Of a stretch of DNA of 64,000 bases, positions 40,301 to 58,228 are shown piece after piece; the stretch's first letter is position 1; every line of letters begins with the position of its first letter. The notes below the pieces were generated by a model. That model saw nothing but the letters and a program-made list of their open reading frames with translations, did no database searches and had not been told where the DNA came from. Source of the stretch: Ectothiorhodospira shaposhnikovii (GTDB taxonomy: Bacteria; Pseudomonadota; Gammaproteobacteria; Ectothiorhodospirales; Ectothiorhodospiraceae); assembly GCF_022227765.1 (NCBI RefSeq), contig NZ_JAJMLZ010000005.1:1-64000 (forward strand). The letters run 5' to 3'. A program made the translations under genes and the position numbers.

Positions 40301-40947
40301 AGATGCCGGACATGGACGGCCTGGAGGTGACCCGACGCATCCGACGCGGTGAAGCCGGCCCGGCCGCGCGGAACATGCCGATCATCGCCATGACCGCCCA
40401 GAGCAGCCCCGAAGAGCAGGCCCTTTGTCGCGAAGCGGGCATGGATGGGCACCTGGGCAAACCGCTGACACCCGAGGTCGTGGCACGAACACTGCTGCCA
40501 TGGCTCGGCCGGGATCCGGGGAATAAGTCACCCTCACCCGGTGTGTCGGCACGGCCATCACCCGGCACTCCGATCTTCGACAGGCCGGGCATGGAACGGC
40601 GCCTGCAGGGGGATCTGGATCTGCTTCGCAAGGTACTGGAAACGGCGCGGACAGACCTGCCCCGCCAGATCGAGACACTGGAACGGCTGCTGAACACGCC
40701 CGGCAGCACGCCGGAACAGGTCTGCCGGCAGGCCCATGCCCTCAAGGGTGCCGCCGCCAGCACGGGAGGCGAGTGCCTGCGCCTGGCCGCCCAACGCCTG
40801 GAAACGGCCGCGAACGACGATATCCAGGCCGCGGCCGCCCTGCTGCCGGATCTTGAACAGCAATGTAACGAATTGCTGGAGGCTTTGCGGCTTGTGTTGC
40901 GGGAGATGTCCGATCATGATCCACGACCCGATGCCGGAACGGCATGA
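37381..40947 (+). CDS. Hybrid sensor histidine kinase with PAS, REC and Hpt
   Basis: 1188-residue tripartite membrane kinase. Transmembrane helices lie at about 9-30, 190-210, 222-245 and 500-522, leaving two extracytoplasmic sensor segments (about 31-189 and 246-499; the second has a CRAC pair). A PAS domain (about 540-655), HisKA with phospho-accepting H682 ([12 protein letters not shown]), an ATPase domain (GSGLGLAI), a receiver domain with D972, and a C-terminal Hpt domain with H1119 ([10 protein letters not shown]) follow. The layout is BarA-like. It overlaps the next gene by 4 nt, so the Hpt probably phosphorylates that regulator. The signal is unknown. Confidence 0.9.
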
Positions 40948-41891
40948 CCATCCGAGGTGACACGCCGGTGCGCATCCTGATTGCCGAGGACGACCTGACC
41001 TCCCGCACCCTGCTGGTATCGCTGCTGGAGAAAGCGGGACATGAGGTGATCGAGACCCGGGACGGCATGGAGGCCTGGCGGATGCTGCGGATGCCCGACG
41101 CCCCCCGACTGGCGATCCTCGACTGGATGATGCCGGAGATGGACGGCATCGACGTGGTGCGCAGGGTGCGCGGCCTGCGGACCGAGTTGCCCACGTTCAT
41201 CATCATGCTGACCTGTCGGGATACCAAGGCCGACCTGATCCACGCCCTGGACAGCGGCGCCGACGACTATCTGGTCAAGCCCTTCGATGCCGGCGAACTG
41301 CGGGCCAGGATGGGCGTGGGCATCCGGATCATCCAACTCCAGGAGGCCCTGTTGCAGAGCCGTGAAGACATGGCCTACCAGGCCACCCATGACCCCCTGA
41401 CCGGCCTGCCCAATCGCCGGGCCATCCTGGAACATCTGGAACGGGAGCGGGAACGCTGCATTCGCAATGGTGAAATGCTGGCCATCGGCATGTGCGACGT
41501 GGACCGGTTCAAGACCATCAACGACACCCACGGCCATCAGACCGGCGATGAGGTCCTGTGCGGGATTGCCCACCTGCTGCGCGAGAGTGTGCGATCCTAC
41601 GATGCCGTCGGGCGCCTGGGGGGTGAGGAGTTCCTGATCGTCGCCGCCATGCCGGTCGGTGCCGATCCCTGGCAACTGTTCGACAAACTGCGCCAGCAGC
41701 TGTGCAGGACCCCGATCGTGACCCGGGCCGGCGCCCTGCCCGTCACCCTCAGCATCGGCGTCTGCGCCGCCGCCAGGGACAGCAGCCTGGATGAAATGCT
41801 GGCCCTGGCCGATGAGGCCCTCTACCAGGCCAAGAGCCAGGGACGCAACCGTACCGTCTGCAATACCAGGCGCCCTCGGGAACCTGGATGA
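40944..41891 (+). CDS. Response regulator diguanylate cyclase (REC-GGDEF)
   Basis: 315-residue regulator. The receiver domain has phospho-acceptor D60 ([11 protein letters not shown]) and K at CKPFD-like [16 protein letters not shown] domain follows, with active-site GGEEF and an intact inhibitory I-site (RSYD five residues before GGEEF). It should make cyclic di-GMP when phosphorylated, by the preceding hybrid kinase (4-nt overlap). It lies directly upstream of bchE, separated by the bchE promoter. Confidence 0.9.
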
Positions 41892-41921
41892 TACAAGCCC
41901 TTGACGCAGCGCATGTCCAGC

Positions 41922-41939
41922 TGTCCATCAAGGTTGACA
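41922..41939. promoter_or_regulatory. CrtJ/PpsR-type box at the bchE promoter
   Basis: TGTC-N10-GACA matches the known CrtJ/PpsR operator (TGT-N12-ACA; TGTC-N10-GACA in its fuller form). The right half is the end of the -35 element TTGACA (41934-41939), so binding would block RNA polymerase. CrtJ/PpsR is the aerobic repressor of bch, crt and puc genes in purple bacteria. The regulator gene itself is not in the window. Confidence 0.65.
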
Positions 41940-41963
41940 GTGCCAAAAATGCACGGGTACGAT
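41934..41963 (+). promoter_or_regulatory. bchE promoter (-35/-10)
   Basis: TTGACA (41934-41939) and TACGAT (41958-41963) are separated by 18 nt, 92 nt upstream of the bchE start. The consensus -35 overlapping a CrtJ-like box makes this the likely main promoter. Confidence 0.6.
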
Positions 41964-42054
41964 CGGGCATTCCGGGGAACTTAGGAACGCCCCGCCTGTC
42001 TTGTTCACCCGCGGGAGAACCCGAGGGTGATGAATCCTTTCGCGGGAGCAACGT

Positions 42055-43764
42055 ATGCGAATCCTCTTCGTCCATCCCAATTACCACTCCGGGGGCGCCG
42101 AAATCGCCGGTAAGTGGTCCCCCGCCTGGGTGGCCTATCTGGCCGGCTACCTCAAGACCCACGGTTACACCGAGTACGTCTTCGTCGATGCCATGACCGA
42201 CGACACCTCGGACGAGGATCTGCGCAGGATCTTCGCCGAAGCCCAGCCCGACATCATTGCCTGTACCGCCGTCACCCCCGCCATCTACAAGGCCGAACAG
42301 ACCCTCAAGATCGCCAAGGAGGCCTGCCCCAACGCCGTGACCCTGCTCGGCGGCATCCACGCCACCTTCATGTTCCAGCAGGTGCTCACCGAAGCCCCCT
42401 GGATCGACGCCATCGTGCGCGGCGAAGGCGAGGCCGTGGTGCTGGAAGTGGTCCGTGCCGTGGACGAGGGCCGCTGGGAATCGGGCCGTCAGGACATCAA
42501 GGGCATCGCCTACATTGAGGACGACAAGGTGGTCGCCACCCCCGCCGCGCCCACCATCCGCGACGTGGACTCCATCATCCCCGACTGGGGCGTGCTGGAC
42601 TGGAAGAAATACATCTACATCCCCATGGGCGTGCCGGTGGCCACCCCCAACATGGCCCGCGGCTGCCCCTTCACCTGCAGCTTCTGCTCCCAGTGGAAGT
42701 TCTGGCGTGACTACCGGGTGCGCGATCCCAAGAAGGTGGTGGACGAGATCGAGATCCTGGTGAAGGAACACGGCGTCGGCTTCTTCATCCTCGCCGACGA
42801 GGAGCCCACCATCAACAAGGCCAAGTTCGTGGAGTTCTGTCAGGAACTCATCGACCGCGACCTGGGCGTGCTCTGGGGCATCAACACCCGCGTGACCGAC
42901 GTCATGCGCGACGAAGACCTGCTGCCCTTCTACCGCAAGGCGGGCCTGGTCCATATCTCCCTGGGCACCGAAGCGGCGGCACAGCTCAACCTGGACATGT
43001 TCGTCAAGGAAACCACCGTGGCCCAGAACAAGCGGGCCATCGAACTGCTGCGCAATGCCGGCATCGTCACCGAGGCCCAGTTCATCGTCGGCCTGGAAAA
43101 CGAGACCGCCGAGACCCTGGAAGAAACCTTCCAGCTGTGCATGGACTGGAACCCGGACATGGCCAACTGGGCCATGTTCACCCCCTGGCCCTTCTCCGAC
43201 CTGTACACGGAGATGAAGGACAAGGTGGAGATCTTCGACTTCGAAAAGTACAACTTCGTGACCCCCATCATGAAGCCCAAGGCCATGACCCGCGGCGAAC
43301 TGCTGGACCGGGTGATGCACAACTACCGCCGCTTCTACATGAAGAAGGCCTTCCTGGGCTATCCGTGGGAAAGAAACCCGCTGCGCCGCAAGTACCTGCT
43401 GGGCTGCCTCAAGGCGTTCCTCAAGAGTGCCTTCGAGCGTCGCTTCTACGACCTGGGCAAGGCCGGCTACTGGGGTCCCCAGTCCAGAAAGACCGTGAAC
43501 TGGAACTTCGACACCTCCCGCACCCTGGTCAAGCCCGAGCCGCAGCTTGAGGAGCAGGTCATCAAGTGGAAGAGCGCACCGCCCCGCAAGCGGGCCGGTG
43601 CCAAGGGCGCCGCCCTCAAGGCCTGCGGTGGCGGCGACGAGCAGCTGCCGGAGAACACCTCCAGCACTGCCCAGCAGGTGAAGATCTGCGGCGGCGGGGA
43701 CCAGCAGCTGCCCGAGAGCATGGATGACGCCAAGATCAAGGAGAAGATCAAGGAAAACGCCTGA
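42055..43764 (+). CDS. bchE: Anaerobic Mg-protoporphyrin IX monomethyl ester cyclase
   Basis: 569-residue B12-binding radical SAM enzyme that closes the fifth ring of bacteriochlorophyll without O2. An N-terminal B12-binding-type domain (about residues 1-150) is followed by a radical SAM domain. That domain has the cluster cysteines C204, C208 and C211 (CPFTCSFC), and a C-terminal extension completes it. The C-terminus repeats a short motif twice: [10 protein letters not shown], then [10 protein letters not shown] about 20 residues later. Neighbouring cobalamin genes fit its corrinoid requirement. It has its own promoter with a CrtJ-like box and a terminator-like hairpin after it. Confidence 0.95.
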
Positions 43765-55875: not shown

Positions 55876-56017
55876 GGATCGAGTGAACTGCGTGAAGGGC
55901 AATGCCGGGGCGGCCGGAGCGGGTGGGTAAGCTTAGCGGGTCGGGGTCCACGGGGCAATGCCCGACTTGCCCGACACCGGCCATCGGCCACCGGCGTTAC
56001 CGGCTTTTTGAGGCCCG

Positions 56018-56049
56018 GGCATGCAAGCGCACTATAATCAGGCATGCAA
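56018..56049 (+). promoter_or_regulatory. TATAAT promoter flanked by GGCATGCAA direct repeats
   Basis: A consensus -10, TATAAT (56033-56038), lies between two identical repeats GGCATGCAA (56018-56026 and 56041-56049), 23 bp apart start to start, about two helical turns. The -35 is poor (TTGAGG at 56008), as expected of a promoter needing an activator. It points toward the B12-binding protein gene. Confidence 0.55.
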
Positions 56050-56090
56050 TCCTGTCGCCGCCAATCCCGTCAACCCTCGCCGAGGCAAGA

Positions 56091-56106
56091 TTTTCAGGCC
56101 TGAAAA
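56091..56106. promoter_or_regulatory. Perfect 16-bp palindrome before the B12-sensor gene
   Basis: TTTTCAGGCCTGAAAA is perfectly symmetrical and ends 10 nt before the ATG at 56116, about 50 nt downstream of the TATAAT box. It could be a repressor operator or, in RNA, a hairpin covering the ribosome site. Confidence 0.6.
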
Positions 56107-56115
56107 ACCGTCACC

Positions 56116-57243
56116 ATGCCGATCCCTCCAATCATGCCGCCGCTACCATGCTCGCAGGTTCCCAAAGGCACCTCGGACCGTTATCGGCAGCACAGAAACC
56201 GGATGGCCAGCCTGGTTTCACGTACGATGGCCAGGCATCCCCGATGCGATGAATTCAGCGGCGGGCACGGCATGCGCTTGCTGGAATGCAATCACCGCAA
56301 TCACGCGGCCTTCATGGCCGAGGTGCTTGCGGCCAATGACTTTCAGCTGCTGGCGGAGACCCTGCCCTGGGTGTATGCCGCCTATCATCATCAGGGCGTG
56401 CATTTTGACTATTTCCCCGCCCAGTTCGAAGCCTGGACACAGGCCATCCGTCTCACGCTCAGCGAAGCCGACGCGGAACATCTCCTGCCCGTGTACCGCT
56501 GGATGGCCGACAGTCATCCCGCGATCATCAAGACCGCCCTGTCTCATCAGGCTCGCAGGCTCCACGTCCCCGACCGGTACCGGGAGGAATACACCTACAT
56601 CACTGCCAGCCTGCTGCAGGGAAATTATCCGGACATCATCCGTCGCTGCAGAGCATTGCTGAGCCGCGGCATGTCCTACGGCGACATCCTGCAGGAACTG
56701 TTCTATCCCGCCATGGTGGATGTCGGGGCACGCTGGGAGGACGGCGAGATTTCAGTGTCCATGGAACACCAGGCCACCGCCATGGCCTACGGCATCCTGT
56801 CTTCCCTTTACCATGATCTACCCTTCCCCGACATCCACCGCGGACACGCCCTGGTCAGCCCCGTTTCAAACGAGTTTCACGAAATGGGCGCCTGGATGCT
56901 GGCAACCAGCCTGGAACTGGATGGGTGGGACATCACCCTGCTGGGCGGCGATACCCCCCGGGAATATCTGATCACGACGGCGGTGCGGCAACGCCCCAGG
57001 TTCGTGGCCCTATCGGTGACCCTGATCAGCAACATCCATGAAGCCCGCTGTACCATCGAATACCTGCGGCAGGCCCTTGGACGTGACAGCACCACCCGCA
57101 TCCTGGTCGGTGGGCAGGCGTTTCTCATGGCCCCCCGCCTGGCCGCATCCGTGGGGGCCGATGCTTGCCTGGAAAGTTGTGATGCGGCGGTCCGATGGGC
57201 GCGAACCCTGGAGGCGGAAACTGATGAACCCATCAGCTCTTGA
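56116..57243 (+). CDS. B12-binding light-sensor-type protein (W-x9-EH)
   Basis: 375-residue protein (from 56116; start uncertain, 56272 possible and more protein-like). After an N-terminal helical region of no known family, a four-helix B12-binding cap (about residues 155-225) carries W207, E217 and H218, the W-x9-EH motif of adenosylcobalamin photoreceptors such as CarH and AerR. A Rossmann B12 domain follows (about 240-365). It has the axial-ligand motif E253-F-H255-E-M-G258 and later SVTL and LVGGQAF. No DNA-binding domain is present, so output should be through a partner. The next gene, a diguanylate cyclase, overlaps it by 20 nt. Light sensing is inferred. Confidence 0.85.
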   Translation: MPIPPIMPPLPCSQVPKGTSDRYRQHRNRMASLVSRTMARHPRCDEFSGGHGMRLLECNHRNHAAFMAEVLAANDFQLLAETLPWVYAAYHHQGVHFDYFPAQFEAWTQAIRLTLSEADAEHLLPVYRWMADSHPAIIKTALSHQARRLHVPDRYREEYTYITASLLQGNYPDIIRRCRALLSRGMSYGDILQELFYPAMVDVGARWEDGEISVSMEHQATAMAYGILSSLYHDLPFPDIHRGHALVSPVSNEFHEMGAWMLATSLELDGWDITLLGGDTPREYLITTAVRQRPRFVALSVTLISNIHEARCTIEYLRQALGRDSTTRILVGGQAFLMAPRLAASVGADACLESCDAAVRWARTLEAETDEPISS

Positions 57244-58228
57244 TCCCACCCTGCAGCCCGAACTGGCTCGGGCACTCCACAGCTATGTCATGGAGTCCGG
57301 CCGCCTGGTGGTAGTGGAAGTGGACAGTGACGGCCGGATCATGGGTGCCAACGTCACGTTCCGTTCCCGCTTTGCCGGATTTGCGGATGTACGCGGTGAA
57401 TCCCTGTCCCGGTTCCTGGCCAGCGATGACGAGATGCCCGACATCGAGCCGGGACTTGCCCACCGTACCGCCATCGCCCGGATATTCAACACCGTCATGG
57501 GAGGAGAAAACTACCTGTTCCATGCCTATCCGCTCAATGCCCACACACTGCTGATCGGGGAGCCCGCCAAGACGGACGACAGCGACGTGATCGGCCGCAT
57601 GGGCAATCTGGCACTGGAAATGTCCCGCCTGGTCAGGGATCTTCGCAAGGCCAATCACGATCTGGCCGTGGCCAACGAGCTGAATCAGCAGCTGGCCCGC
57701 ACCGACGCGTTGACGCACCTGGCCAACCGCCGGTATTTCATGGAGCGCCTCCAACAAGGGGTGGTCCAGGCCCAGAGTCGCCGGCATGCCCTCTCCATCC
57801 TGATGATGGACCTGGATCACTTCAAGCAGATCAATGACAGCTTCGGTCATGCCGCCGGTGACACAGCGCTGACCGCCTTTGCGGAACTGCTGCGCGCGCT
57901 GGTCAGAATGTCAGACCTGCCGGGGCGACTGGGGGGAGAGGAATTCGGACTTTACATGTTTGACACCCATCGCCACGTGGCCGCGGCGGTGGCGGAACGC
58001 ATCCGGGCAAGTACCTGGGAGCTTCGCCCCAACGGGCTGGATCATCGACTCAGTGTCAGTATCGGTATCGCCGTGCTTGAGCCCGAAGAGGATGCGGAAG
58101 CGCTGATAAGACGTGCCGACACCGCGCTTTATCAAGCCAAGAATCAGGGCCGTAACCGGGTCGTCATCGCAGGGCCGGAGTCGGAACACGCGACCGGACG
58201 GGAAGAGAATGCACCTAGGAAGGACTGA
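57224..58228 (+). CDS. PAS-GGDEF diguanylate cyclase coupled to the B12 sensor
   Basis: 334-residue cytoplasmic protein. The N-terminal PAS-like domain (about residues 15-115; VVVEVDSDGRIMGANVTF) is followed by a coiled-coil-like linker (SRLVRDLRKANHDLAVANELNQQL) and a GGDEF domain with active GGEEF and an intact I-site (RMSD five residues before). It should make cyclic di-GMP. The ATG at 57224 lies inside the B12-sensor gene (20-nt overlap) with GGAGG upstream, implying coupled translation and probably a common pathway. It is convergent with the antenna genes. Confidence 0.88.
   Translation: MNPSALDPTLQPELARALHSYVMESGRLVVVEVDSDGRIMGANVTFRSRFAGFADVRGESLSRFLASDDEMPDIEPGLAHRTAIARIFNTVMGGENYLFHAYPLNAHTLLIGEPAKTDDSDVIGRMGNLALEMSRLVRDLRKANHDLAVANELNQQLARTDALTHLANRRYFMERLQQGVVQAQSRRHALSILMMDLDHFKQINDSFGHAAGDTALTAFAELLRALVRMSDLPGRLGGEEFGLYMFDTHRHVAAAVAERIRASTWELRPNGLDHRLSVSIGIAVLEPEEDAEALIRRADTALYQAKNQGRNRVVIAGPESEHATGREENAPRKD

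Follow-up and report, generated by a model that had tools for sequence, protein, structure and literature searches.

Can a B12-dependent light sensor control cyclic di-GMP synthesis through a cyclase that is encoded next to it as a separate protein? This question is raised by two overlapping genes of Ectothiorhodospira shaposhnikovii (assembly GCF_022227765.1), which lie in a stretch of 64,000 nucleotides (contig NZ_JAJMLZ010000005.1, positions 1 to 64,000; hereafter, the window). The genome comprises 3.34 Mb in 39 contigs, and its two Photo_RC matches mark it as that of a phototroph. A sequence-only reading of the window had suggested that a CarH-type B12 photoreceptor signature is tied here to a cyclic di-GMP synthase, and the motifs, the GGDEF domain, and the conservation of the pair all support this suggestion. 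It appears rather probable that the two genes encode a split, diguanylate cyclase (DGC)-coupled, photocobilin-like two-protein switch, in which an adenosylcobalamin (AdoCbl) sensor set by light acts with its own cyclase. The features of the pair are listed in Table 1.

Table 1. Features of the sensor–cyclase gene pair (window positions).
Feature	Position	Strand	Evidence
Globin-B12 (photocobilin-like) sensor gene, 375 aa	56116..57243	+	ORF, Pfam, orthologs, motif conservation, model
Bilin-type globin domain spanning residues ~17-149, with Asn59 where the Asp that holds the bilin would stand	56164..56562	+	Profile A4 vs PDB, Pfam, A5
Cobalamin-binding domain: four-helix bundle and Rossmann domain, W207-x9-E217-H218, E253-x-H255-x-x-G258	56572..57219	+	Pfam, AlphaFold model, structure superposition
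Partner gene, 334-aa diguanylate cyclase (PAS-like domain, coiled coil, GGDEF)	57224..58228	+	ORF, Pfam, AlphaFold model, structure matches
Gene overlap, 20 nt, probable translational coupling	57224..57243	+	ORFs
PAS-like domain, partner residues about 20-116, common to partners of differing output	57281..57571	+	Profile, model
Coiled-coil linker, partner residues 119-159	57578..57700	+	AlphaFold model, structure matches
GGDEF domain carrying the active site (GGEEF) and the I-site (RxxD)	57698..58159	+	Pfam, motif conservation

Sensor and Cyclase

The reading frame of the sensor, as first proposed from the sequence, was borne out, and its ATG is matched by the open frames of five congeneric orthologs over the same N-terminal stretch; the closest named relative is the protein of Ectothiorhodospira lacustris (93% identity). 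Only two Pfam families, B12-binding_2 (7.1e-12) and B12-binding (2.6e-16), are found in the protein, and the CarH model reaches 56.7 bits against a cut-off of 400, in agreement with the earlier view that the sensor has no DNA-binding domain. W-x9-EH is the adenosyl-pocket signature of B12 photoreceptors. W207, E217, H218, E253, H255, and G258 all stand where the sequence-only reading had placed them and, together with E208, are invariant in 28 of the 28 aligned sensors (window counted), which argues that the W-x9-EH and ExHxxG motifs are not a product of chance. The alignment (A2) leaves out two loci in which the sensor is broken into pieces (L082 and L086) and three in which a contig end cuts it (L077, L079, and L085). 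The SignatureFinder elements GxxW, EH, and GxxxP are present (G204xxW207, E217H218, and G277xxxP281), and the GxxH element was not matched in the sensor, which reads N252-E-F-H255 (NxxH) with the His itself kept.

The AlphaFold model of the sensor (mean pLDDT 93.1, pTM 0.89) consists of an all-helical globin part (helices at 17-142), the four-helix bundle (153-233), and a part of alternating strands and helices. Photocobilins (8j2w_B, 8j2x, and 8j2y_B; Z 25.5-26.5) give the best superposition on the B12 half, 207 residues of 8j2w_B being aligned at an rmsd of 1.7 (Z 26.5), ahead of AerR (7te2, Z 20.9) and CarH (Z about 20). These structure comparisons were made by VIA-align, whose rows for the sensor span mainly residues 152-370, and by Foldseek.

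The partner starts within the 3′ end of the sensor gene, as had been noted, and its ATG is preceded by GGAGGCGG; the arrangement of the frames suggests that the two genes are probably translationally coupled. It has also been confirmed that the catalytic site and the I-site of the partner are intact (GGEEF at 237-241, Asp196, and R228-x-x-D231). The Pfam GGDEF family matches at 2.1e-46, and RxxD-x5-GGEEF occurs in all 26 GGDEF-type partners (window counted), so a chance origin of these sites is not indicated. By the sequence features of a diguanylate cyclase, i.e., GG(D/E)EF, the metal Asp, and RxxD, all of which it carries, the partner is predicted to be active.

The PAS domain that had been claimed for the cyclase is putative. 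Pfam gives no PAS match in the window protein, whereas the AlphaFold model (pLDDT 84.7, pTM 0.58) has a PAS-like topology, with strands at 29-33, 38-42, 84-90, 96-103, and 108-114 in a PAS-like order, followed by a 41-residue helix (119-159) and the GGDEF domain. In addition, a homolog (L098) that matches the partner profile at 3.7e-14 scores above the Pfam PAS_4 cut-off. The helix and GGDEF domain superpose on the phytochrome-DGC 5llw_A (Z 27.6 over 199 residues), and the LOV-DGC 8c05 is also among the matches. For 8c05 and the PAS-GGDEF protein 5xgd, the whole-length rmsd is above 20, and most rows cover only residues 117-320.

Conservation of the Gene Pair

The pair was surveyed with two sensor sequence patterns, blind to neighbours, over the genome collection, which yielded 32 distinct loci with those motifs (L077 and L079 derive from one MAG). 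With a PAS-like profile from which the four odd partners had been left out, the gene adjoining the sensor is matched in 31 of the 32 loci and, among all 1469 ORFs of these loci, just one further frame. In the remaining locus (L066), an ATG overlaps the sensor by 4 nt and opens a partner-like start of ~25 codons, after which, judged by eye, the frame breaks. Conservation of the pair, whose absence would have counted against the sequence-only reading, was therefore found. The partner lies 3′ of the sensor on the same strand in all loci except that of Thiorhodospira sibirica (L084), where it is directly upstream. The spacing lies between an overlap of 26 nt and a gap of 27 nt, with partner starts set in frame to fit relatives; the mechanical ORFs begin further upstream in L055, L067, L068, and L079.

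With regard to the output of the partners, GGDEF was found in 25 of the 32 loci, a SpoIIE phosphatase in one (L071, 1.1e-38), and a LuxR-type GerE domain in one (L083, 3.2e-15). The partners of L072 and L081 have no Pfam output domain, and three are unclassed: that of L064 is cut by a contig end, that of L066 is truncated, and that of L082 ends early (all three are omitted from the partner alignment A3). The PAS-like part is constant across the partners while the output varies; the SpoIIE and LuxR-type partners match its profile only at 3e-6 and 1.3e-6, respectively.

The loci are labelled with seven phyla, of which the Myxococcota label is doubtful (the records are titled Deltaproteobacteria). 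In a quick tree search without bootstrap, 27 sensors form one group (SH-aLRT 96), and the sensor of L083 lies outside it on a long branch. Among 22 GGDEF-type pairs (window counted), sensor and partner distances are correlated between the cobalamin-binding domain and GGDEF (r 0.95), the coil (0.88), and the PAS-like domain (0.87), and between the globin and PAS-like domains (0.70); 0 of 1000 permutations were as high, shared ancestry being uncontrolled. As far as adjacency and sequence tell, the pair is an old conserved unit. Its members have stayed adjacent in distantly related bacteria, which makes it probable that they work as a single switch.

Two other accounts of the neighbourhood were considered and set aside. 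A genome-wide excess of GGDEF genes might lie behind the adjacency; the 48 GGDEF stretches of the E. shaposhnikovii genome were estimated to be too few to give a partner at nearly every locus. A conserved third gene was also sought, and the neighbour clusters present in at least three loci turned out to be close relatives, opposite-strand frames, or scattered families.

Distribution and the Nature of the Cue

Within the family, sensors of this clade are present in 7 of 47 genomes, namely in 7/11 phototrophs and 0/36 non-phototrophs (Fisher 5.2e-6, a value that treats related genomes of few genera as independent). Two non-phototrophs (G012 and G014) contain more distant globin-B12 proteins. A match at 1e-40 was obtained in 7 of 369 genomes of the class and in 6 of 299 of the phylum (own genome counted in each), and the 13 loci from these draws, besides the own locus, are sister types. 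In seven of the 13, the partner profile hits a neighbour gene; most of these hits fall in the coil and may reflect helix composition. Five of the seven neighbours are histidine kinases (L096, L097, L100, L109, and L113), one is an ABM-PAS protein (L098), and one is unclassed (L111). No neighbour matching the partner profile was found in L099, L101, L102, L103, and L112; that of L110, which a contig end truncates, is below the profile threshold.

Many carriers of the sensor are named in record titles as anaerobes not known for light use (Smithella, Thermodesulfobacterium, Thermodesulfovibrio, and Syntrophales). For this reason, the ancestral cue may be the AdoCbl level or redox, and the ecology of the carriers is the weightiest doubt on light as the cue. 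Also counted against a light switch are the four of the 11 phototrophs of the family that lack a sensor of the clade, the NxxH in place of GxxH, and the partners with no recognised output.

It follows from the same carriers that the supply of AdoCbl is a live alternative cue. The pair would then sense this supply, or the redox or alkylation state of the corrinoid, and a loaded versus an empty sensor would set the cyclase. AdoCbl binding alone lowered the activity of the photocobilin-DGC fusion AbDPcob relative to the apoprotein (PMC10979010), and the pair begins beside a CbiC gene in its own genome. On the other hand, the invariance of W-x9-EH in every aligned sensor speaks against this explanation, as do the restriction of the clade to phototrophs within the family (whose genomes are not phylogenetically independent) and the finding of cob adjacency in only one of 10 loci. 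Supply sensing is therefore judged unlikely, and a switch set by light is preferred.

The Globin Domain and the Bilin Site

The sequence-only reading had compared the sensor, as a B12-binding protein without a DNA-binding domain, with CarH and AerR. A B12 domain alone is not supported: the sensor has an N-terminal globin-type domain, and photocobilins are closer. A profile of this domain (A4, 28 sequences) finds in the PDB, as top matches, the globin domain of photocobilin (8j2x/8j2w, E 0.0033/0.0035), followed by allophycocyanin (0.0067) and, lower, by other phycobilin and heme globins. The corresponding profile of a sister set (A5, n = 8) matches photocobilin at 1.4e-6 and AbPcob at 6.5e-4. 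The N-terminal part of the window sensor matches no Pfam family, Phycobilisome included. With E values of up to 1 allowed, three of the 28 sensors match this family, the best at 1.4e-6, and the window sensor is not one of the three. In one sister locus (L113), the globin part is encoded as its own ORF adjoining a B12-domain ORF, which shows that it is a separable module; the histidine kinase of this locus, which matches the partner profile, is accompanied by a receiver-kinase ORF. By these profile matches, the first ~140 residues of the sensor are related to bilin-type globins, and in its domain content the sensor is photocobilin-like, with the globin ahead of the B12 domain.

It was reported that Asp270 of SasPcob is the key biliverdin residue and is replaced by His in AbPcob (PMC10979010). 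One Asp (D40) is invariant (8/8) in the sister set and aligned with an Asp of SasPcob and a His of AbPcob. From this His, and from Trp296 of the published numbering (PMC10979010), which fixes a constant offset of 6, we infer that D40 occupies the position of Asp270. The window sensor has Asn59 at this position, and the 28 sensors have Asn (22), Thr (2), Asp (1), Lys (1), Ala (1), and Glu (1). Heme oxygenase PF01126, the only heme-degrading family searched, is absent from the own genome and from all 11 phototrophs of the family; it was found in five of the 47 family genomes, none of them among the 11 with Photo_RC. Asn59 and the lack of PF01126 in the genome together suggest that B12 is likely the sole chromophore, which fits the report that AbDPcob may need biliverdin less (PMC10979010).

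A full photocobilin, whose globin would bind a bilin so that the pair senses both red and green light, is accordingly improbable: the relation of the globin to those of photocobilins and phycobiliproteins and the retention of Trp85, which is aligned with a photocobilin Trp, are outweighed by Asn59, by an Asp in only one of the clade's 28 sensors versus eight of eight in the sister set, and by the missing PF01126, the heme-degrading family that was searched.

Genomic Neighbourhood

The location of the pair between B12-synthesis and antenna genes, to which the sequence-only reading had attached meaning, is real in this genome, where LHC genes lie on the opposite strand, downstream by about 230 nt. 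As an argument it finds no support: among 10 Chromatiales and gammaproteobacterial loci, searched in up to 6 kb of flanking sequence per locus, that of E. lacustris (L055) alone shows the same arrangement, and a functional meaning of this neighbourhood was rejected. In E. marina, a SiaABCD set lies upstream of the pair. No Rfam RNA, riboswitches included, was matched in the window at gathering scores, and a scan for promoters and terminators found 2 and 3, respectively, compared with 0.9 and 2.3 in shuffles.

AerR is by definition a lone B12 domain encoded beside crtJ/ppsR. The least probable account, also raised by the sequence-only reading and now disfavoured, is that the sensor is an AerR-like antirepressor (one of ALTERNATIVES) that acts on PpsR/CrtJ for photosystem genes with the cyclase as a bystander; AerR among the structure matches of the B12 half and the nearby LHC genes would fit it, but the genome has an AerR relative elsewhere (best PDB match 7te2, E 1.5e-13), no LHC genes were found in nine of the 10 loci searched, the PAS-like protein is the constant neighbour, and positions 55903-56115 contain no TGT-N12-ACA, which we take to be the PpsR site. 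The AerR relative precedes ppsR (in L004, where ppsR is a TIGR02040 fragment, 8.6e-9; in E. lacustris L054, TIGR02040 is intact, with 527 bits against a cut-off of 275), so the window sensor is not needed as an antirepressor. By reading, this relative lacks W-x9-EH, as do three congeneric proteins of its type.

Proposed Mechanism

In the preferred two-protein light switch, the sensor would bind AdoCbl in the dark between W207, E217/H218, and the lower ligand H255. The dark sensor, probably a dimer of the CarH/photocobilin type, would touch the cyclase at its PAS-like domain, its coiled coil, or both. Light in the green range would split the Co-C bond, and the adenosyl group would depart and the sensor change shape. 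The register of the cyclase coiled coil would then shift, and cyclic di-GMP synthesis would be altered, most likely upward, with feedback through the I-site. The globin domain, which has lost the bilin-holding Asp, would most likely be structural or a partner interface rather than a red-light antenna. The gene pair itself, its motifs and domain make-up, its conservation, and its co-divergence are shown by the sequences, and light sensing by the pair, AdoCbl as its ligand, the direct contact with PAS or coil, and the sign of the effect are inferred.

In the photocobilin study, light raised the activity of AbDPcob more than 10-fold, and AbDGC was activated in trans by AbPcob or holo-SasPcob supplied as a separate protein in its light state (PMC10979010). 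SasPcob without biliverdin had the opposite sign on AbDGC (PMC10979010), which counts against a two-protein light switch. By analogy, the simplest reading is that the gene pair would be the natural two-protein form of an AbDPcob-type switch.

A wider reading is put forward tentatively, as close to an even call: the pair may represent a widespread split B12 module, consisting of a globin-B12 photoreceptor without a bilin site and a PAS-coiled-coil receiver with interchangeable output. This output would be mostly a DGC, and otherwise a SpoIIE phosphatase or a LuxR-type DNA-binding domain, with histidine kinases beside sister sensors. If so, one AdoCbl photosensor fold would drive many outputs via PAS contact, and purple sulfur bacteria would set cyclic di-GMP by green light.

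Significance

In the literature searched, with most subscription journals and bioRxiv outside its range, no B12 photoreceptor with a separate DGC is described. A photoglobin study reportedly surveys gene neighbourhoods and may already list operonic links of this type. Photocobilins and the fused AbDPcob are known; what appears to be new is a split, photocobilin-like sensor without a bilin site and with a dedicated PAS-coil-DGC. The function of standalone photocobilins has been called less clear, and the reported trans effects were tested on the AbDPcob cyclase domain only (PMC10979010). The present locus offers a sensor and a cyclase that are paired in nature, in phototrophs of which relatives are in culture (Ectothiorhodospira and Allochromatium), and the related loci keep the sensor and the PAS-like receiver while the output changes. 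B12-photoreceptor control of cyclic di-GMP in vivo, and the surface through which it acts, thereby become testable. In addition, the pair offers a compact two-protein green-light tool, and its occurrence in organisms not known for light use sharpens the question of light versus AdoCbl level.

Comparison with Known Systems

AerR of Rhodobacter capsulatus (7te2) shares with the sensor the fold of the B12 half and the absence of a DNA-binding domain, whereas the sensor has an extra globin domain and adjoins a PAS-like GGDEF gene rather than ppsR/crtJ. CarH of Thermus thermophilus has W-x9-EH, ExHxxG, and a B12 domain of four-helix bundle and Rossmann fold, as in the sensor; it differs in its MerR-type DNA-binding domain, which the sensor lacks, and in the residue after the Trp, i.e., H132 (after W131) in CarH and a Glu, invariant in 28, here.

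On the cyclase side, the phytochrome-DGC 5llw and the LOV-DGC 8c05 have the same layout of sensor, coiled coil, and GGDEF as the partner, but the chromophore of the present system would reside on a separate protein. SiaC-SiaD is a case of trans activation of a DGC by a small protein, according to the title of entry 7e6g; unlike the B12-protein sensor, SiaC is a phosphoprotein.

The photocobilins AbDPcob (Acidimicrobiaceae bacterium) and SasPcob (Saccharothrix syringae) come closest. They combine a CarH-type B12 domain, marked by W-x9/10-EH and E/DxH, with a bilin-type globin domain, as the sensor does, and share with the pair the link to a diguanylate cyclase; AbPcob has also lost the bilin Asp (His there, Asn here). 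Their domain order is reversed, the globin preceding the B12 domain here, and photocobilin groups are mentioned in which the B12 domain lies at one end or the other (PMC10979010). GxxH reads NxxH in the present sensor. Unlike in the fused AbDPcob, the sensor and the cyclase are separate proteins whose genes overlap, and the cyclase has a PAS-like domain and coiled coil of its own.

Other B12 Genes beside Genes of GGDEF Proteins

A second link between B12 and cyclic di-GMP in the genus is provided by another B12 paralog, which in three congeneric genomes (loci L028, L029, and L030) is divergent from a gene for a GGDEF protein of 714-717 aa. The L029 protein, the one scanned for domains among the three, has the architecture PAS-PAS-GGDEF-EAL. 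In the window, another GGDEF gene lies ahead of the gene for a radical-SAM B12 protein, presumably BchE-like (region 40944-43764).

Variation in and around the Sensor-Cyclase Pair

In two Thermodesulfobacterium genomes, the pair of globin-B12 sensor and overlapping PAS-like/coiled-coil/GGDEF partner looks decayed or cut. Other domain layouts occur at two sister-type loci: at L113, where the globin and B12 domains have an ORF each, the next genes downstream are one for a histidine kinase that the partner profile matches, then a receiver-plus-kinase ORF; at L098 an overlapping gene precedes the sensor. Upstream of the pair, genes similar to the SiaABCD set of E. marina (four NCBIfam equivalogs above cut-off) are found at the same place in E. 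haloalkaliphila and E. mobilis.

Features in the window and at the compared loci
Location	Feature
Window 40944-41891	GGDEF gene
Window 42055-43764	Radical-SAM B12 protein gene
Window 41922	TGT-N12-ACA, between these two genes
Window 58967	TGT-N12-ACA, upstream of antenna (LHC) genes
L066:7041-7150	Thermodesulfobacterium, partner truncated
L082:5944-7552	Thermodesulfobacterium, partner ends early, sensor in pieces
L113:1255-5245	Globin and B12 domains as two separate ORFs, then the histidine kinase and receiver-plus-kinase ORFs
L098:5156-7239	ABM (monooxygenase-like) plus PAS protein gene, sensor
L058:319-4163	E. marina, SiaABCD
L004:2096-2205 (own genome, G000:C22)	ppsR, frame broken

TGT-N12-ACA Palindromes and ppsR

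The TGT-N12-ACA palindrome has eight sites across the whole window, and the two tabulated may be chance occurrences. The ppsR frame of E. shaposhnikovii is broken in the assembled sequence at a perfect 55-nt tandem duplication, which may be a mutation or an assembly artefact; that of E. lacustris (L054) is open.
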